Virus record (IMG/VR): IMGVR_UViG_3300007799_000004
Span: 1-51,974 of that record
DNA: 51,974 nucleotides
Strand: one strand, 5' to 3'
Source of the DNA: a virus
Made by a program: the position numbers and the translations under genes. Under the pieces are notes generated by a model that had not been told where the DNA came from, made no database searches, and saw only the letters and a list, made by a program, of their open reading frames with translations. Positions 37,793-51,965 of the stretch are shown piece by piece (positions within the stretch are counted from its first letter, which is position 1; each line of letters begins with the position of its first letter).

Positions 37793-39394
37793 TCAGATAT
37801 TCAAATTCAATCTAATTTGAGCTATACGGCTCACGTCCCATACGTTCAAAGAACCTGGAACTGTACGATAAATACCCAATTCTTTTGAGTTAACGTGTGC
37901 GTTAGAACCATCGGTAATTGCACCAGTTTCAAAATTATAGATATTAGAAATAGTGTAATATTCTTCTACATCATCCTGCATTACCATACACATGTTTTGG
38001 CCAGACATTCCTGCTGGAGTTTGATCGGTATTACCCAAATCAAAAATATCCATAGTAAATGACTCCAATGTATAATTAGTACCTGGAGCAAGTTCTGGAA
38101 AACGTGAACGATCATCTTTAGTAGGATCATGAACAATCGATACTTCGATACCGTTCATCATCTTAATCTTCGTAAATTGACCACCATATTCGAGCTCATT
38201 AGAATTAAATCCTTCTGGATCAGTTCTTTTTTGAGCGAACAATGTATCAATAGATACAATAGAACTGTACTCTTCAAAAATCTTACGACTCAAGAATTGA
38301 ATACCGGCTTCACCAGAAGCAATTTTGATCTTACGATCAGAAAAGTTCTTTCTTGTCAAGAAGATATTTTGGAAAAATGAGAAGATATCACCAAGTGACA
38401 AGCTGCCGTTGTGCTCTAGGTAATGTCCATCTTTTGCGAGTTGTCTCCAACCTGCAGGAATTTTGATCGGACGTTTGGTATCATGATCAATTGTTTTTTG
38501 CAACTGACCATCTTCCATTGCCATTTCACGATCCCACATAACTCTTTCTTCCAAACGAGCTTCTATAGAAGTAATAAACGTACCTTTAGAAATAGTCTTT
38601 GTGGTCTTGTCCTGTAGAGTAGTCTGATACACATAACCAGAACTAACAGCAGCACCTTTTACTTTTGCACCTGCAACAGAATAAGAATCATTTGTTGGAA
38701 CAGATTGACCACCTTTACGAGCAGCTAATTCAGTTCTAATAAACTTATCGGTAAATTCTGCTTTACGTGAGTACTGAGTTGTCCAGTTAAACAATTTAAA
38801 CATTTCACCGTATTCATCTGGACCATACTTGGTGTTCAATTCATCAGCCGTAAAGGTTGTAGATTGTACACAAGACATTCCAGGTTGTAAAAACTTAACT
38901 GGGATGAAAGCAGTCATATCACCAGTCTGAAGTTCTACTTCATATTCGGTTGAGTTAACTGAACGTTCAACACCATGTCCTATAATACGAAGGAGTGGTA
39001 AATCAGCTTGTGCCAATTTAATGTAAACAGGTTCGTGTAGATAGTTTCTATCTAACGCGATTTTAAATCTTACACCTGCTTTACCAGCTTGACCTGCTGG
39101 ATCTACCAGCAATTCGGTAAACCGATACTCAAGAGCAGTGCTACCCATCAAATACCAAGTAAACTCATCTACTCCACCAGGAAGCATGTGAACTTGTTTT
39201 TGAGCAAGAGTATAGTAAGTAAATTTTTTGTTAATCATATCCTCGCCAATTTTGGCAGAGAATAGTTGTGCGCCTTTGACACCAAAGTCAAACGGCTTGT
39301 ACTGTCTGAACATTGCTGCGTGGGTAAAGCTATCAAAATAACTTCCACCAAATGCTGCACGTTCATGTGTTACTAATGCGGATCTTCTATCCAT
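37793..39394 (-). CDS. Major capsid protein (crAss-type)
   Basis: The 533-residue length is near the crAss-like MCP size. The region from about residue 300 to 370 (AGWRQLAKDGHYLEHNGSLS, then LGDIFSFFQNIF, RKIKIASGEAGIQFLSRKIF) matches the conserved core I remember: an x-WRQL turn, a helix for the spine, and a (I/F)xxGEGGM-like strand. An HK97 fold is expected. Upstream lies the scaffold gene (14-nt gap) and behind it a 13-bp terminator. A weak upstream promoter-like element next to the scaffold gene may raise transcription of both. It builds the icosahedral shell, probably with help from the chaperonin pair in this window. Confidence 0.85.
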   Translation of the reverse strand: MDRRSALVTHERAAFGGSYFDSFTHAAMFRQYKPFDFGVKGAQLFSAKIGEDMINKKFTYYTLAQKQVHMLPGGVDEFTWYLMGSTALEYRFTELLVDPAGQAGKAGVRFKIALDRNYLHEPVYIKLAQADLPLLRIIGHGVERSVNSTEYEVELQTGDMTAFIPVKFLQPGMSCVQSTTFTADELNTKYGPDEYGEMFKLFNWTTQYSRKAEFTDKFIRTELAARKGGQSVPTNDSYSVAGAKVKGAAVSSGYVYQTTLQDKTTKTISKGTFITSIEARLEERVMWDREMAMEDGQLQKTIDHDTKRPIKIPAGWRQLAKDGHYLEHNGSLSLGDIFSFFQNIFLTRKNFSDRKIKIASGEAGIQFLSRKIFEEYSSIVSIDTLFAQKRTDPEGFNSNELEYGGQFTKIKMMNGIEVSIVHDPTKDDRSRFPELAPGTNYTLESFTMDIFDLGNTDQTPAGMSGQNMCMVMQDDVEEYYTISNIYNFETGAITDGSNAHVNSKELGIYRTVPGSLNVWDVSRIAQIRLNLNI

Positions 39395-40476: not shown

Positions 40477-43014
40477 TTATTTTCCAGATGGCTTTTTATT
40501 AGCTATTTTATTCTTAATTTTAAGTTCTTCTCGTTTAATCTCTAAATCATCTCCTTGTGCTTTGACATCAAGTTCAAACTTCTTTTCTTTTAAATAAAGA
40601 TTAGCCAAATCAACAGAATCTGGAACACCGTTATCATTCAGATCTTGTTGCTTACCTAACATAGTAGCTTGAATACCTGCTTTCTGTATTTCAGTTATTC
40701 TCCGTTCCTGTTCTTTCAAGACAATCATTTCTTTTTCATGTAACTGCTCATCTTCTCTAGCTTCAATTCTCATTTTCTCTAAATCTTGAGCTTGTTGAGC
40801 TTGAGAGTTTTGCATTTGTGTTTGACGATCATGAATTTTTTGTTCTTCTATTTGAATCCTTTTATGAATTTCTTCAGGAGATGCCTTACTGACAATGTCT
40901 TTAATAATCTGACTTACTGCAGAAATACCCTGACCTTGATTTTGTGCAAATGCTTGAGCATTTTGTAACATCATTTCAGCGTATCTTTCAAAACTAGAAC
41001 TTGAACTCAAGAAAAGACCGATATCAGTATGTTCTAAAGATTGAGGTGTAACCTGTAAAACTTGTTCAATATTTCCAGGCAACCAGTACTGAAAAGAAAG
41101 TTCAGATAGATTTCTAACTCGCATCTGTGTTTCACAGTAAGTTCTAAAATTAGACAACCAGTCATTTAACGCCTCTTTCCAAATATTAGAATGAGTAAAG
41201 AAGTATGGTTCTGTAATAGCATAACTCTGTTGAATCGACTGTTGATTGTCTGTTACATTAGATCCTTGTTGAAAGGAGGCTTGTCTTTGTGGGGATATCC
41301 CCATAGCCATAGCTATTTCTTGTTTTATTAATTCTGCTAGCTGATGTAAATTCATCAACTCAACTGCTGTACCAATAAGAAATCCTCCAGATCCGGGTGA
41401 CCTGGTTGCAGGAGGTAGATTACCAGAAGATGTTTGAGAGCCAGAATAGAAATCTTTGTTCGTCAGTCTTAACGTCCTAAGATATGCTGACACCTTATCT
41501 CTAATCTTATTACCATTCAAATCTTCTCCCAACTGATCTGGGATTTGATCTACATCTATAGATTGAATAGCACCTTGATATTTACTCAATTCCTTATTCA
41601 TTACACTCTTCACATAAAGAAGTTGTAAATACGGTGGAATTGCTCTCTGCACTAAAGACACTGATTTAGTATTTCTAGCGTTTACAACACCTCCTTTAGT
41701 AGAAAGACCAAATGTTTCATACGGTCTTTCTATATTTGTATTTTGATAAGGTACTTCTCTAAATATTGGATACACATCGTTACCTAATCTAACTACTTCA
41801 TATTTCCGTGGTATCCAAATCCTTTCTGCTTGGAACTCCATATCCATATCTAACCAAACATATCTTTCTGCCTCTCGATCATATTGGTTTATAAACTTTT
41901 CTTTTTTTGCAGACTTTGGAATTTCAAAACTAGAGTCTAACACAGATGTTATACTTTCTCCGTAATCATCTTTATACCTAAGAAAAATTAATTCTTTAAA
42001 CGCTTTGAACTCAAAATGAGTTTCCCAAATAAGTGTTTTGTTACCATTTACAAATTCATTTGTTTGATTAAGTCCTACAGTTATATCAACGTCAGACTGA
42101 GTTTGATTCACAAGCAAGTCGGTTCTTGTATGATCAAACACTAGCTTATTATCTTGACCTAAAGAATGTCTTTTGTCTAAACCTCGACCAAACGTTACAT
42201 GAAGTTTTTCAATGTCCTCTTCAGATAGATCGTAAGCTTCTACAGCGTCTATTAAAGTAATAGCTTGTTGATATGCAATCCAACTTGAGTTGTGTACATA
42301 CTTTTCATTCGGGGATTTATCCCAAATTAAGTAAAGTGGATTTCTAATATCCAAAGTAGGTTTTCCATGTTTCCACCCGGAATAAACAAACATTCTGTCA
42401 GCAACAGCAAGATCGGTCATTGTATCTACTCGCTTGTCTAATATATTTTGATCATAGTTACAAAACTCAAGAGCTTTGTTGTAAAAAATTTCTAACTCCG
42501 ACAACCAATTCTTTTGAGCTAAATCTTCGGGCTCATGCTGAGTTCTCAGTTCAGCAACAAACTTATTAACTTCTTCTTCTTCCATTCCTTCCATCTGCAT
42601 TTCCATTTTCTGCAAATCTATTGCAAGCTTTTCATCAACCGATTGTTTGATAGCTTCAAACATCTTTCTATTTTTACTTTTAATAGCGTTTGCCGACAGA
42701 AGCATTAAATGAAGTTGATCTCTTCTTTGAATAATTTCTCCTTTTAAAATAGAAACAGCATTATGAATTTCTGGGTAAGGTTGAATGTCGTGGTCTGTAG
42801 TTTCTCCAAACTGATCTGCAAGCGGGTTACAAAATTTGTTCAACATATCTTTAAAATCTGTTAAATCATTATTTATAACTTTATAAGCTGTCAACATAGC
42901 TGTATAATCTTCTGAGTTTGGAAGTAATTGAGGAACGGTCATGTTCAAATATTCCTTAAACCACTCTCCTTCGTTTTTATACTTTTCCTTTTCGGAAATT
43001 TTTAACTTAATCAT
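40477..43014 (-). CDS. Portal protein (845 aa)
   Basis: The length and position after TerL and the chaperonin, and before the scaffold and MCP, match crAss-like portals. The early helical part (residues 60-200: EIHNAVSILKGEIIQRRDQL) and the conserved-looking RNPLYLIWDKSPNEKYVHNS segment in the clip/wing region fit. The C-terminal ~180 residues are Gln- and Glu-rich and form a long coiled coil, as in a barrel or crown. Odd: residues 791-802 (DLNDNGVPDSVD) form a complete EF-hand/dockerin-type calcium loop, and a second partial loop DLNGNKIRD lies near residue 497. It overlaps the GroEL-type gene by 8 nt at its start and ends 33 nt before a terminator. Confidence 0.85.
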   Translation of the reverse strand: MIKLKISEKEKYKNEGEWFKEYLNMTVPQLLPNSEDYTAMLTAYKVINNDLTDFKDMLNKFCNPLADQFGETTDHDIQPYPEIHNAVSILKGEIIQRRDQLHLMLLSANAIKSKNRKMFEAIKQSVDEKLAIDLQKMEMQMEGMEEEEVNKFVAELRTQHEPEDLAQKNWLSELEIFYNKALEFCNYDQNILDKRVDTMTDLAVADRMFVYSGWKHGKPTLDIRNPLYLIWDKSPNEKYVHNSSWIAYQQAITLIDAVEAYDLSEEDIEKLHVTFGRGLDKRHSLGQDNKLVFDHTRTDLLVNQTQSDVDITVGLNQTNEFVNGNKTLIWETHFEFKAFKELIFLRYKDDYGESITSVLDSSFEIPKSAKKEKFINQYDREAERYVWLDMDMEFQAERIWIPRKYEVVRLGNDVYPIFREVPYQNTNIERPYETFGLSTKGGVVNARNTKSVSLVQRAIPPYLQLLYVKSVMNKELSKYQGAIQSIDVDQIPDQLGEDLNGNKIRDKVSAYLRTLRLTNKDFYSGSQTSSGNLPPATRSPGSGGFLIGTAVELMNLHQLAELIKQEIAMAMGISPQRQASFQQGSNVTDNQQSIQQSYAITEPYFFTHSNIWKEALNDWLSNFRTYCETQMRVRNLSELSFQYWLPGNIEQVLQVTPQSLEHTDIGLFLSSSSSFERYAEMMLQNAQAFAQNQGQGISAVSQIIKDIVSKASPEEIHKRIQIEEQKIHDRQTQMQNSQAQQAQDLEKMRIEAREDEQLHEKEMIVLKEQERRITEIQKAGIQATMLGKQQDLNDNGVPDSVDLANLYLKEKKFELDVKAQGDDLEIKREELKIKNKIANKKPSGK

Positions 43015-44449
43015 GTAAAATAAAATTTGTATTTATTAGTAATGTAGCTAATGCAAAACTGTTTGTAAGTGCATTAATAATTACATTTGTAGGATCCTTT
43101 AAAGTCGGATCTATTTCTTTTGTTCTAACGTTGTATGGATGACTGACAGGATTGTCATGCAGTATTGAAGAAATATTTGCGTTTGTCAATATCTTTCTTA
43201 TTGGAGAAAGTAAAACGTTTACATAGTCTTCTGAATAGCTTAAATCATAAGCAATATCTACTAACTCTGCACCAGCACCTTTAACATAACCATCTTTAAC
43301 AGCTGTTTTACAAGCACCAATAGCATCTTCAATTCGATCAAACTCTTCTTTAGCATTGGCTAAAGTTTTACCACCTACATAAATAATAGCAGTCGTTTGA
43401 TTTAAGTTATCAATTCTTTTCTGAAAATCATTAATATCCCATTCTTCAGTAAATCCTTCTATCTGAGCACGTAGTTGTTTAATTCTATTTTTAATCTTAC
43501 CTATTTCAGGATTGTTATAGAAAGAAAAATCTGTGGGTGTAACAGTAATCTTATTAACCGAATCTTTAGACATAAACGCTTTCATGTCTTTATAGTTTTC
43601 ATCTACACCTGCGCCCCAACCTGGAAGTTTTAACAAGCATATATCCAAACCCTTTTGAGTTTTATTAGTCAACGCATATCTAATAAACGAGTCAGAGTAA
43701 TCTTTAGCAATAATTACAAGTGAAATCTTTTCTTCATGTAATTCATTAATAGCTTCTGCGTATCCTTCAAAATCATTCATTACGTCTTTGGTAAGAACGA
43801 TCTTCGGACTTTCTGCTGAAAATGTACCATTTAACTGATTTGCAAAAAGCGGGTGTATTAATCCACCTTCAAAGTTTAAACCCTTTGTGATCTCTGAATA
43901 AGATGTAGCAGAATGTTGTGATAGTTGTACAGAAATAGAAGCTTTTAAACCAACCTTTTTATATATCTCATATATCATACTTGCCAACTTGTCGTTCTTG
44001 CACGAAGTCATTGCAATATTTAATATATCATCGATACTATCTATCTTCTTAGATCTAGCCTTTAAGTGTCGGATTGTACTATTTACATATTCTTCCCACT
44101 CTTCTAAAACATCATTAATTGAATTGTGTTCACACAATGCGAAAAGATTGGATACAAACTCTTGTACAAACAACGACGTTAAAGTTGTACCATCTCCACA
44201 TTCTTTTACAGTTTTATTAGCTGCTGTAATTAGCATTTGAGCTCCAGCATCTTCTTCCGAATCTTTAAACTGAATCTTTTTAGCAACAGACACACCATCT
44301 TTCGTAAACTGTAGTTGCTTGTCTTCAAACAATAAAACGTTCTTTCCAGATCCACCCATTGTAGATGTAATAATATTTGACGCCTTTCTAATTCCTTCCA
44401 AGACTCCTTTCACAGAGTCTACATTATTAATCAATCGTTTCTCGTTCAT
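43007..44449 (-). CDS. GroEL-type chaperonin (480 aa)
   Basis: The group I chaperonin pattern is clear. GGSGKNVLL at 32-40 corresponds to the GroEL GPKGRNVV loop, TKDGVSVAKKI at 49-59 to the DGVSVA segment (Asp51 equals GroEL Asp52), and GDGTT at 85-89 to the nucleotide loop. RIEDAIGACKTAVKDGYVKG at about 390-410 corresponds to the C-terminal equatorial ATPase segment with its Asp, and DPTNVIINALTNSFALATLL to the DPTKVTRSAL region. It is ~70 residues shorter than host GroEL and lacks the C-terminal Gly-Met repeats. It sits between TerL (23-nt overlap) and portal (8-nt overlap). It probably folds virion proteins with the phage GroES-like partner. Confidence 0.88.
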   Translation of the reverse strand: MNEKRLINNVDSVKGVLEGIRKASNIITSTMGGSGKNVLLFEDKQLQFTKDGVSVAKKIQFKDSEEDAGAQMLITAANKTVKECGDGTTLTSLFVQEFVSNLFALCEHNSINDVLEEWEEYVNSTIRHLKARSKKIDSIDDILNIAMTSCKNDKLASMIYEIYKKVGLKASISVQLSQHSATSYSEITKGLNFEGGLIHPLFANQLNGTFSAESPKIVLTKDVMNDFEGYAEAINELHEEKISLVIIAKDYSDSFIRYALTNKTQKGLDICLLKLPGWGAGVDENYKDMKAFMSKDSVNKITVTPTDFSFYNNPEIGKIKNRIKQLRAQIEGFTEEWDINDFQKRIDNLNQTTAIIYVGGKTLANAKEEFDRIEDAIGACKTAVKDGYVKGAGAELVDIAYDLSYSEDYVNVLLSPIRKILTNANISSILHDNPVSHPYNVRTKEIDPTLKDPTNVIINALTNSFALATLLINTNFILHD

Positions 44450-46796
44450 ATTTTTTTAATCTTGCCAGTGTATTTGATGTCCCAAAAATATTTGGATTAA
44501 TTGACAAAAAAGCCAACGGATTGTGTTTTGGTTTATTTCTTTCTTTAAGAACAGAATGTTCTAATTCTTTTAATGCCAATGGATAACCAAGATACGCAGA
44601 CACAGCATCAAAGTTTCCTTTTAAATCAAATTGGATAAACTGCTGTACTAAAAACAAACAGGGAAGAGTTTCTACGACTCTACATTTCTTACCATTTAAC
44701 ATTGTTTGAGAGAGCAGATTATCATTGGTATCATCGCACATTTCAATTTTATCTATTTGATTACCTACCATATAACCATACTCAAGCACTTTTCTATCAT
44801 AGATAGCCGATCCTTTTTCTTTATTAGGTCTAAGTGCTAACAGAAACATTTTATTCTTTTTCATGTAATAACCTCTAACCGAATCTCCTCTATTAGCTTC
44901 ATACCATAAACCTCTTGTCGGATTACCGTAATAAGCTAATAACTTTTCTTGATTGTCATAGTAAGAATCTTTTCCGTTTGGATGTTTACCAATATAAGAA
45001 CATACTAATAAATTTCCATTAAATCCTTCCGATACATACTTAGGATTTAAGAAGCCTAAAGTCACACCTAAAGACCCACCTTCATCTATATTTTCAGAAA
45101 CATAAGGATCGAAAGTAAATATATACATGTCTGATGGAACTTCTCCTCTAATTGTCTGAGGCTTCTCATAAATAGCAATACCACCATCGATCTTAGTTAC
45201 AGTTCTATCAAAAGGAAACGTATGTATTAATTCTATCTCTGCATCATACTCAGCTCTAACACCATTCAATTGTTTAGAATCCCATATCAATTTTGTGGGT
45301 TGTGCGAGAGTTTTATACTTCTGATCTATCAATAGCTCTTTCTCTCTTTCCATCAACTCAATCTGTGGAAAATATGAACCTTTGTTAGAGATCCACATAT
45401 CAGAGGGAATTAACGGATAGTTCATTTTTTCTGCATAAATAGAAGCGGGGTCATCTTTTTTAGCAGCATCTATTCTTCTTTGTTCATAATGCTTTAGTGC
45501 TCTTTCTAAGTCTGTATTACCATTCTGGTCTTTAAACTTAGTTTCTGTTAAATACGCGGGAACAAATAAACCGATTTTCTTTTCTGATACTTCCCAGATG
45601 TTTTCAAATTCTAAGAAATCATATTCTTTAGGATTTTCAAATACCTGTCTAGTTTGCTGAATTAAATCAATATTACCAGAAGTTCCAATACCTAACTGAA
45701 CTCCAAATTGTTCACCATCTACAGAAACCACAGCAGTGTTAGATAGAAGTGCATCCTTAAAGTTAGGCATCAATCCAATCTCTTCATATAAACACAGTTG
45801 TGATCTACCACCAGCACCAGCTTGTGCACCATCTTGCTTCTTATCAGAATAGTTAATATGATGTAAACTTGTACCAGTTCCTTTTTTTAACCATCCTTGT
45901 GGAGTTTCAATTTCATATTCATATCTAAGTGGATTTTTAGTATTCCCTGGTTTATCATCACCAATCCAGTTTCTATAAAACGGTGTTGGTTCATAATCTT
46001 TAGTAGCAGGATCTCCCCACACGCCTAAATCTTTATCTGTACCAAGAACATTTAATCCTGTAGTAATTTTATTTACTAACTCAGAACTTTTACCAGTAAT
46101 ACCTGCACCTAATATAACTTTCGTTGTAGGAGGATTGTCAAACATATCTTTAGAAAACTCTTTAATCCCATCAAAGGTTAAAGTGTGTGTTGCAATACCA
46201 GCACAGCTATAAGACTTACCTCCACCCCGGGAGCCTAAGATCTCGAGATTAGATGCCGTATTATAATACAACGGTCGACCTAAGTTTTCTGTATGTAATT
46301 GCTTGATATATTCTCTCGGTTCTACAAACTCTTTTCTTTTACCATTCGACTTATGTAGATCATTAAATCTAATTCTATCGTCAGCTTCTACTGATACTTC
46401 TAACTCTTTATACTTAGCATCTTCTGCAAGAGCTTTATCACAAGAATATTTATCGTCTTTCTTAAAGCCAGAAAAACCTTGAGCTTCTAAATAAGAATAA
46501 TGTATCAACCAATCTAAATCTCTTACAATAGGTTTTATAAAAGTCCTTATTTTTCTGTTCCTTTGAGTATGTTCTATTTTAAAAAAATTAGCGTAGTAGA
46601 ACAACGTAGGAGGCATAAATCTCCAGCCATTTGAATCAAATGCCCAGAATCCTTCAATACACCACTTAGTATAACTTGTCCACAACTTACTATATTGTGG
46701 ATTATCTGGATGATACTGAGGTATTGTTATTAAGAAAGAGTTGATATTTTCAACAGTAATCAAGTCTTTCTTTAATCTGTTTATATCTGTAATCAT
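44427..46796 (-). CDS. terL: Terminase large subunit (TerL)
   Basis: Walker A is GSRGGGKS at residues 188-195 and Walker B with catalytic Glu is LCLYEEIG at 334-341. A QAGAGGRS loop between these may be part of the ATPase core. Later segments (MNYPLIPSDMW; then TFDPYVSEN with an acidic residue) fit the RNase-H-like nuclease domain. The 789-residue length is on the large side but typical of crAss-like TerL. It cuts concatemeric DNA and drives it into the head through the portal. The start overlaps the small HExxH gene by ATGA and the end overlaps the GroEL-type gene by 23 nt. Confidence 0.92.
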   Translation of the reverse strand: MITDINRLKKDLITVENINSFLITIPQYHPDNPQYSKLWTSYTKWCIEGFWAFDSNGWRFMPPTLFYYANFFKIEHTQRNRKIRTFIKPIVRDLDWLIHYSYLEAQGFSGFKKDDKYSCDKALAEDAKYKELEVSVEADDRIRFNDLHKSNGKRKEFVEPREYIKQLHTENLGRPLYYNTASNLEILGSRGGGKSYSCAGIATHTLTFDGIKEFSKDMFDNPPTTKVILGAGITGKSSELVNKITTGLNVLGTDKDLGVWGDPATKDYEPTPFYRNWIGDDKPGNTKNPLRYEYEIETPQGWLKKGTGTSLHHINYSDKKQDGAQAGAGGRSQLCLYEEIGLMPNFKDALLSNTAVVSVDGEQFGVQLGIGTSGNIDLIQQTRQVFENPKEYDFLEFENIWEVSEKKIGLFVPAYLTETKFKDQNGNTDLERALKHYEQRRIDAAKKDDPASIYAEKMNYPLIPSDMWISNKGSYFPQIELMEREKELLIDQKYKTLAQPTKLIWDSKQLNGVRAEYDAEIELIHTFPFDRTVTKIDGGIAIYEKPQTIRGEVPSDMYIFTFDPYVSENIDEGGSLGVTLGFLNPKYVSEGFNGNLLVCSYIGKHPNGKDSYYDNQEKLLAYYGNPTRGLWYEANRGDSVRGYYMKKNKMFLLALRPNKEKGSAIYDRKVLEYGYMVGNQIDKIEMCDDTNDNLLSQTMLNGKKCRVVETLPCLFLVQQFIQFDLKGNFDAVSAYLGYPLALKELEHSVLKERNKPKHNPLAFLSINPNIFGTSNTLARLKKYERETID

Positions 46797-49711: not shown

Positions 49712-49896
49712 ACTATAACCAATTGAGTAGAGTTTGTTATCACTATTTCCATGTTATGAACATATTCTAAATATGTCGTAGAATCTAGTTCTTTTACAAG
49801 TAAATTATAACTTGTAATATTAATCAATATCTTTCTTGGTATTCTGTTTCTCTTTAAAAGAGCTAATTCTAAATCAATAATTTTATCCAGTATCAT
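49708..49896 (-). CDS. Hypothetical protein (62 aa)
   Basis: The sequence (MILDKIIDLELALLKRNRIP, then ITSYNLLVKEL) is helical with an amphipathic pattern and ends in a hydrophobic strand (ITNSTQLVIV). It overlaps the winged-helix gene upstream by 14 nt and the HU-like gene by 4 nt. No motif was recognised. Confidence 0.55.
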   Translation of the reverse strand: MILDKIIDLELALLKRNRIPRKILINITSYNLLVKELDSTTYLEYVHNMEIVITNSTQLVIV

Positions 49897-50236
49897 CGTT
49901 CTTTATTTTAAAATTAAACATAATTTCTATCTTATCTTCTTTATCAAAGAATTGCTTATAAGAACTAGATGCCTTGGATAACTCTTTACCTACAATCAAT
50001 CCTTTATCTTCTAGCCTCTTGAGGATCTTATAAATGTTAGTCTTACTAATACCTGACTCTGACAATTCTTTTCCCTCCAATAAAGTTACAAACACAGAAA
50101 TCTCTGAATCTGTTAACTTACTTTCCTGAAAAATGTTATTAAACTTAAACATATAAGTATATAACTCCTTCCTTGTTATTTCTGTAAATCCTTCAGGTCT
50201 TACATTTATTTTTTCATTTAATAGATTAAGTTTCAT
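49883..50236 (-). CDS. Winged helix-turn-helix regulator (117 aa)
   Basis: Residues about 41-86 form a winged helix: a helix (TDSEISVFVTLLEG), a turn, and a typical recognition helix (KTNIYKILKRLEDKGLI) resembling TrmB or MarR-type regulators, then a wing. The C-terminal ~30 residues are charged. It probably binds DNA and may act on phage late promoters in the window. It overlaps the preceding microprotein by 4 nt and the next gene by 14 nt. The ligand, if any, is not known. Confidence 0.7.
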   Translation of the reverse strand: MKLNLLNEKINVRPEGFTEITRKELYTYMFKFNNIFQESKLTDSEISVFVTLLEGKELSESGISKTNIYKILKRLEDKGLIVGKELSKASSSYKQFFDKEDKIEIMFNFKIKNDDTG

Positions 50237-51112: not shown

Positions 51113-51301
51113 TTAAAGTATAATTACCAATGCTACTACTACAATCACTATTAATACAACTCCTAACACCCAAGAATAATTCTTATCACCTGCACCATTA
51201 GCTTTAAAAGTACTGCTATATTCTTTAGTTTTACCACCTCGACTTCCCCAACTACCTCTAGTTTTACTATGTTGTGCTTTAACTACACTTCTTTTTGTCA
51301 T
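51113..51301 (-). CDS. Small basic tail-anchored membrane protein (62 aa)
   Basis: The first ~40 residues are basic and rich in Ser, Gly and Lys (MTKRSVVKAQHSKTRGSWGS, then RGGKTKEY). The last ~22 residues (SWVLGVVLIVIVVVALVIIL) form a single transmembrane span at the C-terminus. The protein would be tail-anchored with a positively charged domain facing the cytoplasm. It is the first gene after the structured non-coding region. A role in host membrane takeover or lysis is possible but unproven. Confidence 0.7.
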   Translation of the reverse strand: MTKRSVVKAQHSKTRGSWGSRGGKTKEYSSTFKANGAGDKNYSWVLGVVLIVIVVVALVIIL

Positions 51302-51309
51302 CTTGTTAA

Positions 51310-51775
51310 CTTGTTAATTTTTAAAATTTGAATTTTTGATATACCTCTCCCTAGCCTAAATTTAACCGTCTTAAAAACAGATTAAATCTAGGATCTTCGG
51401 TAAACCATTTTACCTTTATTTCAAAATTCCTTTCCATCAGCCAGGGTAGTCAGTACCAATGGTACTTATAGGCTCGTTATAACTAACTTTTATTCTCCAC
51501 CATTACAGTATTGGATCATCAAGTCCGACGTTCGGGTTCTAAACAAATTCAAGATTTGTAATATTTGACCCTGCTCTCCAGTATAACACAACTGATTTTA
51601 TAGAATTTCTTTCACACCTATCGGAGAAAACCATTTTCACCATTACTGTACCTAAATACAAAGGCTACTTTACTAATCCGACTTCTAGACTGGGCTTTCA
51701 TCTCAGGTTAAAGATAGCTGCCAGCCGGTCATTCAATACTTTCTCAAGGTAAGAATGGGTGTTAACTTTTAATTC
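51310..51775 (-). ncRNA. Candidate large structured RNA
   Basis: No protein-coding frame longer than about 35 residues fits here, yet minus-strand RNA folds into many helices: GGCUGG (51721-51726) with CCAGUC (51688-51693); UCUCC (51623-51627) with GGAGA (51575-51579); a GGGUC/GAACCC stem (51567-51571 with 51534-51539) enclosing a 6-bp hairpin (51543-51559); a 6-bp hairpin at 51452-51466; CCCUGGCU (51439-51446) with AGGCUAGGG (51349-51357), enclosing hairpins at 51399-51414 and 51357-51390 (11 bp). G-U pairs make sense only on the minus strand. Internal repeats GTCGGA and GTAATGGTG occur twice. Promoter-like TATATTTG elements lie just upstream. It is not a tRNA. A ROOL- or GOLLD-like large phage RNA is possible but not established. 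Confidence 0.6.
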
Positions 51776-51780
51776 AACTG

Positions 51781-51788
51781 CAAATATA
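51781..51788 (-). promoter_or_regulatory. Promoter-like TATATTTG element before the structured RNA
   Basis: The minus strand reads TATATTTGCA, matching TAnnTTTG; initiation would be near 51775. The element lies next to a GTGAGA/TCTCAC inverted repeat (51791-51809) that may be an operator. It is part of a 14-bp direct repeat with the element at 51850. Confidence 0.5.
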
Positions 51789-51820
51789 AGGTGAGAAATA
51801 TAATCTCACTTCTTTTTTTT
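51789..51820 (+). terminator. Hairpin with T-tract, possible plus-strand terminator or operator
   Basis: GTGAGA pairs with TCTCAC (7-nt loop) and is followed on the plus strand by TTCTTTTTTTT. As a plus-strand terminator it could stop transcripts coming from the left. On the minus strand it lies between the promoter elements, so an operator role is also possible. No plus-strand gene is seen in the window. Confidence 0.5.
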
Positions 51821-51849
51821 AAAATATTTTTTATTTATTTTTTATGATG

Positions 51850-51857
51850 CAAATATA
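51850..51857 (-). promoter_or_regulatory. Second TATATTTG promoter-like element
   Basis: This is a second copy of TGCAAATATAAGGT (51848-51861), repeating the motif at 51779-51792. On the minus strand it contains TATATTTG and could give a second start upstream of the structured RNA. A TTTA lies about 17-21 nt upstream, but no TTTG box. Confidence 0.45.
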
Positions 51858-51904
51858 AGGTATAAATTTAAACATAAACGAGGACTTTAGCCAAAAGTGT
51901 GATA

Positions 51905-51965
51905 TTTTCGACCAACGTACTGATTTCATCGACGAACGTATGGTTTTCATCGACATAAATATTTA
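51905..51965. repeat. Three iteron-like tandem repeats
   Basis: Units begin at 51905, 51924 and 51945: the middle one is TTTCATCGACGAACGTATGG, the first lacks CA and reads TTTTCGACCAACGTACTG, and the third keeps TTTCATCGAC and then diverges. Spacing is ~20 bp, about two helical turns. They could be binding sites for a regulator or replication protein and may extend beyond the right edge. Confidence 0.5.

Follow-up and report, generated by a model that had tools for sequence, protein, structure and literature searches.

The window, by which is meant the whole stretch of DNA analysed here, is a virus record of 51,974 bases from a crAss-like phage. Such phages rank among the most abundant phages known, and the clade considered here constitutes a little-known group among them, the closest GenBank phage by TerL being Cellulophaga phi14:2 (Crassvirales, Steigviridae), with 32% identity. 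The minus strand carries all of the large genes, including those for TerL (44427-46796), a groEL-like protein (43007-44449), the portal (40477-43014) and the major capsid protein (37793-39394). Upstream of the first of these, on the same strand, lies a structured RNA of about 430-440 nt (51338..51776), which extends from a promoter to a conserved 3' motif and is marked out by homologues at the same place and by covariation. A search of the open literature turned up no report of a structured RNA in crAss-like phages.

Judged from its reading frames, the stretch 51310-51775 is non-coding, as the first-pass annotation had proposed. No ORF of at least 60 aa covers it, the best tblastn match of its short frames to any homologue has an E value of 0.003 and involves a close relative only, and the minus-strand frames of the homologues hold at least five stops in each frame of each homologue. 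A conserved protein encoded in one of the short frames was looked for in the homologues, and no reading frame was found to be conserved across them. The minimum free energy of the window RNA is close to that of shuffled sequences (z of -0.2 and -0.41 on the minus strand), and the plus strand of the same stretch gives a z of 0.26. Since the folding energy in the window equals that of shuffles, the claim of a structured RNA rests on the homologues.

Homologues and their distribution

Relatives of the phage were gathered by scans with the capsid protein and TerL. The RNA is present in six records representing four diverged lineages, namely the window and the records G004, G005, G006, G008 and L078, and in all five of the other records it sits before the late genes, in the same place as in the window. 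The G008 copy is partial, with the final ~270 nt present up to the contig end. The copies in G004 and G005 are near-identical, while those in G005 and G006 are 85% identical, and the four lineages compared are those of the window, G008, G005 and L078. Among these, blastn detects only short conserved islands (AGGGAGAGGTATRTC, CTGGCT..GGAAA and GTCTAGAAGTCGG.TTAG). Over the C-terminal 590 residues, TerL identity to the window amounts to 83% in G008, 59% in L078 and 53-54% in G005 and G006, and in a TerL tree the RNA-bearing records all fall on one side of a branch (83/100), so that a single gain suffices to account for the distribution.

The RNA copies of the window, G005 and L078 have no blastn match among GenBank phages. 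The late-arm heads of phi14:2 and of five relatives (G010, G012, G013, G015 and G016) are without such an RNA, and no homologous RNA is visible upstream of the first late gene of G011. When viral contigs were scanned with DNA patterns, two scans yielded no members outside the known records, and a third returned L078 again and nothing else. In bacterial and archaeal genomes, the pattern of the 3' motif produced chance matches only and a TerL scan revealed no relative; a scan with the neighbouring protein orf117 likewise found nothing.

Conserved helices and their support

At least 12 helices, labelled P1-P13, have been proposed by comparison from a hand alignment anchored on conserved islands; at least seven had been recognised in the first-pass annotation. 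All lie on the minus strand. The 5' hairpin P1 (CATTC/GAATG, 51730..51757) has as its counterpart in G005, G006 and L078 a hairpin of other letters in the same position. It is followed by P2 (GGCTGG/CCAGTC), which surrounds the hairpin P3 with its loop TAACCT (51688..51726); P2 reads GGCCCA/TGGGTC in L078 and TCCGG/CTGGA in G005, with the UAACC/U loop kept. P4 (GTCGGA/TCCGAT) surrounds the hairpin P5 (51620..51682) and is replaced by GTCGGG/CCCGAT in L078, GGTGGG/CCCGCC in G005 and AGTGGG/CCCGCT in G006. The 5' arms of P6 (51603-51609) and P7 (51590-51596), which together with the conserved loop UAUAAA occupy 51590..51609, pair with 51423-51442, where the 3' arms of P7 (51436-51442) and P6 (51423-51429) carry the conserved loop GGAAA. 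Further inside, P8 (51582-51587 with 51476-51481) surrounds P9 and P10 (51476..51587), the pairs of this domain being GATGAATTA/TAATTCATC in G005, GTTTAGACA/TGTCTAAAC in L078 and TGAGAATCT/AGATCTCA in G008. The hairpin P11 (AGTACC/GGTACT, 51452..51466) has other letters and a GAAA loop in G006 and L078 and is missing from G005. Other paired letters are found for the hairpin P12 (GGTAAA/TTTACC, 51399..51414) in G008, G005, G006 and L078, and for the hairpin P13 (CCTAGATTTAA/TTAAATTTAGG, 51355..51392) in every other lineage.

The most conserved segment is the 3' motif AGGGAGAGGTATATC (51338..51352), which is near-identical in G004-G006 and G008 and reads GGGGGAGTTATAATT in L078. The conserved single-stranded segments comprise the UAUAAA/GGAAA loop, the UAACC loop and GGGAGAGGUAU. 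A candidate pseudoknot, in which the loop of P3 (UAACC/U) would pair with the 3' motif, is strong in L078 only (-12.0 kcal/mol, shuffle fraction 0.001) and finds no support in the window or G005. Two internal repeats had been read as duplicated subdomains. Both are present, with GTCGGA at 51677-51682 and inside 51515-51533 and GTAATGGTG at ~51639-51647 and 51498-51506; the subdomains are not duplicated, as the second copy, GTCGGA...GTAATGG, recurs in the sister record G008 and in none of the others. Going by letter count alone, repeats of 6 and 9 letters are about what chance would give in 470 nt.

The least circular pairing test takes the best duplex between regions bounded by anchors and not defined by the helices. 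For P6/P7, the duplexes in the four lineages have energies of -14.2 (window), -16.5, -20.0 and -17.8 kcal/mol. Among 24 cross-lineage permutations the true partners rank first, and shuffles equally good occur in 6 of 1000 cases for the window and in 1, 0 and 0 per 1000 for the other lineages. P6 and P7 flank the same internal loop, UAUAAA versus GGAAA, in all four lineages, and they show the strongest covariation within the RNA. A P6/P7 descriptor including the loop matches all six RNA copies. Beyond these it gives four weaker matches, chance-like in kind, in overlapping loci from the relatives, and a single match across 670 kb of loci that are unrelated. True partners are also best for P8 (among 24 permutations) and P4 (among 6). 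In the P9 region, which is without separate support, the true partners are not the best (7 of 24 permutations), and P2 taken alone is weak in the anchored-region test and not separately supported.

Since RNAalifold on a plain MAFFT alignment catches the helices only in part (in a padded subset, MAFFT placed P2/P3 wrongly), a structural alignment made by hand was used. This alignment covers four lineages only and, being fitted by hand, is tilted in favour of the structure. Of its 399 cells, 392 pair (98.2%), as compared with 62% in shuffles and 32-44% when the sequences are slid. Double-sided changes occur in 84 of its 105 pairs; over 500 shuffles the mean is 40.6 and the highest count 53, and sliding gives 9-18. 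Unconstrained minimum-energy folds of single sequences recover 62 of 87 consensus pairs in G005, 62 of 85 in L078, 38 of 51 in G008, 55 of 88 in G006 and 29 of 81 in the window. The search of related crAss-like genomes has yielded homologues whose helices covary across diverged sequences, the mark of a conserved structured RNA, and this is almost certainly a real one, its shape having been kept while its letters changed.

The strand had been proposed from G-U pairs in at least four helices. Such pairs occur on the minus strand in P2, P3, P4, P5, P6, P7 and P13, and over five sequences 39 G-U pairs stand against 1 A-C, a count with a bias, since the helices were selected for pairing on this strand. 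An RNA encoded on the minus strand where the late arm begins is further supported by the covarying homologues and by a promoter on this strand. The sequences themselves show the conserved fold, its strand, the promoter box and the position.

The promoter and the first late genes

Directly before the RNA lies the promoter element ACCTTATATTTGCA (51779..51792, minus strand, with TAHHTTTG at 51781-51788), from which the RNA is expected to start at ~51776. An upstream copy of the element (51848..51861, minus strand), with the -7 box TAnnTTTG, forms with it an exact 14-nt direct repeat at a spacing of 69; these are the two matches in the whole window, and none further appears even when 2 mismatches are allowed. 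The promoter consensus of Bacteroidetes is TTTG/TANNTTTG (PMC6847099). A -7 box of this type immediately precedes the RNA in the window, G005, G006 and L078, and TATCTTTG is found at the same promoter place in L022, L023 and L078. In the window promoter the -33 TTTG is absent at the usual spacing, so that the promoter may need an activator. Transcription of the late genes in crAss-like phages is attributed to the host polymerase (PMC8375218, PMC10136315). Two tandem 21-nt repeats, TGATATTTTCGACCAACGTAC and TGATTTCATCGACGAACGTAT, lie at 51900-51941, ~130 nt upstream of the RNA start, and are possible activator sites or iterons. A perfect palindrome, AGGTGAGA...TCTCACTT (51789-51811), overlaps the stretch that immediately precedes the -7 box and might serve as an operator or, on the other strand, as a terminator.

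Downstream, the distance from the 3' motif to the first ATG is 39 nt in the window, 18 in G008, 24 in G005, 17 in G006 and 12 in L078, and no terminator-like site occurs between the RNA and the first ORF of the window. This ORF (51113..51301, minus strand) encodes 62 aa with a possible membrane segment and has no PHROG or Pfam match and no tblastn relative within the relatives' loci. The first gene after the RNA varies, being a 39-aa ORF in G008, a longer ORF in G005 and G006 and a gene for a winged-helix-type protein in L078. The relative of the latter in the window, a TrmB/PadR-like winged-helix protein (49883-50236, minus strand), is encoded among the first late genes in all RNA-bearing lineages and in L078 by the very first, making it a candidate late regulator. 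In the RNA-less phi14:2, G010, G012, G013, G015 and G016, a similar TAnnTTTG box heads the late arm; unlike in the window, these sister promoters are leaderless or short-leadered, the box standing at the first ATG (within ~45 nt) with no RNA in between. The late arm also holds terminator-like hairpins on its coding strand, which are mere consensus matches, an example being that at 24728-24695 (15 pairs, tail TTTTATTATT).

Possible roles and comparison with known RNAs

The RNA probably helps to control virion gene expression. In the explanation favoured here, host RNA polymerase would begin transcription at the adjoining TAnnTTTG promoter; of the late (virion) transcript so made, the initial ~430 nt would fold into a compact, lineage-specific RNA serving as its 5' leader. 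In this fold, P1-P5 would make up a 5' domain, P6/P7 would close a core containing P8-P11, and P12, P13 and the motif RGGGAGAGGUAURUC would form a 3' part. Transcription would continue past the RNA into the first late gene, and the RNA would act in cis on the whole late operon and not on a single gene. We infer transcription, co-transcription with the late genes and action in cis. The gap between the RNA and the first ATG is 12-39 nt, the first gene varies, and sisters without the RNA have a similar promoter at the ATG; the likeliest reading is therefore that the RNA leads the late transcript and acts in cis. It is very probable that the RNA is made as such a leader, and action in cis on the operon has an even chance of being correct, as has the explanation when taken as a whole.

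As to the action itself, the likeliest would be a modification of the elongating polymerase that lets it pass terminators, as with the put RNA of phage HK022 or the EAR RNA of Bacillales, both of which mediate RNA-based antitermination; failing this, the RNA might protect the 5' end of the late mRNA. Like the present RNA, put and EAR are structured, head a long operon and are independent of the identity of the first gene, and they are made by the host polymerase, as this RNA would be. They are much shorter (about 65 nt for put and about 120 nt for EAR) and have no sequence or structure match to this RNA. Its position and the co-directional late arm would suit an antiterminator, and the terminator-like hairpins within the arm, consensus matches as they are, make processive antitermination a sensible first hypothesis; antitermination in particular is nevertheless a guess, and a rather doubtful one. 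The sister clades without the RNA count against the explanation, as late expression in general needs no such RNA, and so does the size of the RNA, which is unusual for a leader or antiterminator considering that the mean leader of F. johnsoniae is 33 nt (PMC6847099).

The chief rival explanation is a stable non-coding RNA of the phage, comparable to ROOL, GOLLD or a packaging RNA, that acts in trans after being cut from the late transcript or terminated within it. Its size, the number of its helices, its conserved single-stranded segments and the possession of its own promoter agree with this, and so does the lack of conservation of the downstream gene, from which it follows that the RNA is not tied to one gene. 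Against it stand the absence of a terminator-like site after the RNA in the window, the abutment of the 3' motif on the first start codon in all lineages and the lack of an Rfam match, which leave action in trans a serious possibility without making it probable.

A likeness to ROOL and GOLLD had been noted in the first-pass annotation. These are likewise large structured phage RNAs whose function is not known, and the agreement ends with size and phage setting. ROOL and GOLLD are often found near tRNA islands (PMC12286853), whereas this RNA follows immediately on a late promoter and borders on the first late gene, with no tRNA genes across the 52-kb window and no sign of oligomer-forming loops. 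A cmscan search against all 4227 Rfam families, with ROOL, GOLLD, OLE and the group I introns among them, gave nothing at the gathering score, and at E values up to 10 or 5 it gave chance matches only, among which ROOL, GOLLD and OLE did not figure. Covariance models of group I and group II introns, ribozymes, tmRNA and RNase P did not match the RNA. Applied to related loci, the same search detects group I introns and also a hatchet-like ribozyme, indicating that it works on such material, and by this measure the RNA matches no known family. The packaging RNA (pRNA) of phi29, of about 174 nt, is likewise a phage RNA beside packaging genes; there is no Rfam match to it, TerL starts ~4.5 kb downstream of the present RNA, and sister phages with the same packaging genes do without it. 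A Y RNA, partner of Ro/TROVE, was also considered and dropped, as the 99-kb RNA-bearing record G005 and five relatives contain no PF05731 match.

A riboswitch- or attenuator-like leader of the first late gene alone would fit the location directly upstream of the first ATG. The RNA stays while the genes behind it change, being unrelated between lineages, so that single-gene regulation is less likely than an effect in trans or on the transcript as a whole, and this reading is unlikely. Still less credit can be given to inverted repeats acting as DNA, in a replication origin or packaging site, for which the arm switch of crAss-like genomes, where the RNA lies, would be a plausible place (PMC10136315), since the minus strand has many G-U and almost no A-C pairs (subject to the bias of strand choice), the interior long-range helices have conserved internal loops and the promoter is fixed at the 5' end. 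The least credible reading, an AU-rich spacer with chance helices and no functional RNA, agrees with the shuffle-like folding energy of the window and is refuted by the cross-lineage pairing test, the covariation and the synteny, unless the alignment is wrong.

The earlier suggestion of a possible new class has gained support from the lack of both an Rfam match and a conserved protein. In its fuller form, that of a new class of large phage RNA controlling host RNA polymerase or the fate of the late mRNA at the start of the virion operon, it can be put forward only tentatively. If true, this reading would constitute RNA-based control of late gene expression in Crassvirales. The presence of the RNA in one clade and its absence from sisters offer a natural comparison, with and without it, for the control of late transcription, and with this RNA the small set of large phage RNAs lacking a known function gains a family.

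Additional elements have been observed in the relatives. A hatchet-ribozyme-like match at L022:211-322 (minus strand), G005 opposite arm, scores 49.8 bits against a gathering score of 51. Several relatives, among them L011:5291-8698 and L089:1202-4603, have a TerL with an in-frame insertion at ~residue 190, beside the Walker A motif GSRGGGKS; the TerL of the window has no such insertion. The insertions contain Hint and LAGLIDADG homing-endonuclease domains in L011 and a LAGLIDADG domain in L089, which point to inteins. Group I introns (77-80 bits) occur at L011:15499-15814 and L096:11810-12112, where they apparently interrupt the major capsid protein gene, the capsid match in the intron-bearing relatives stopping near residue 320.
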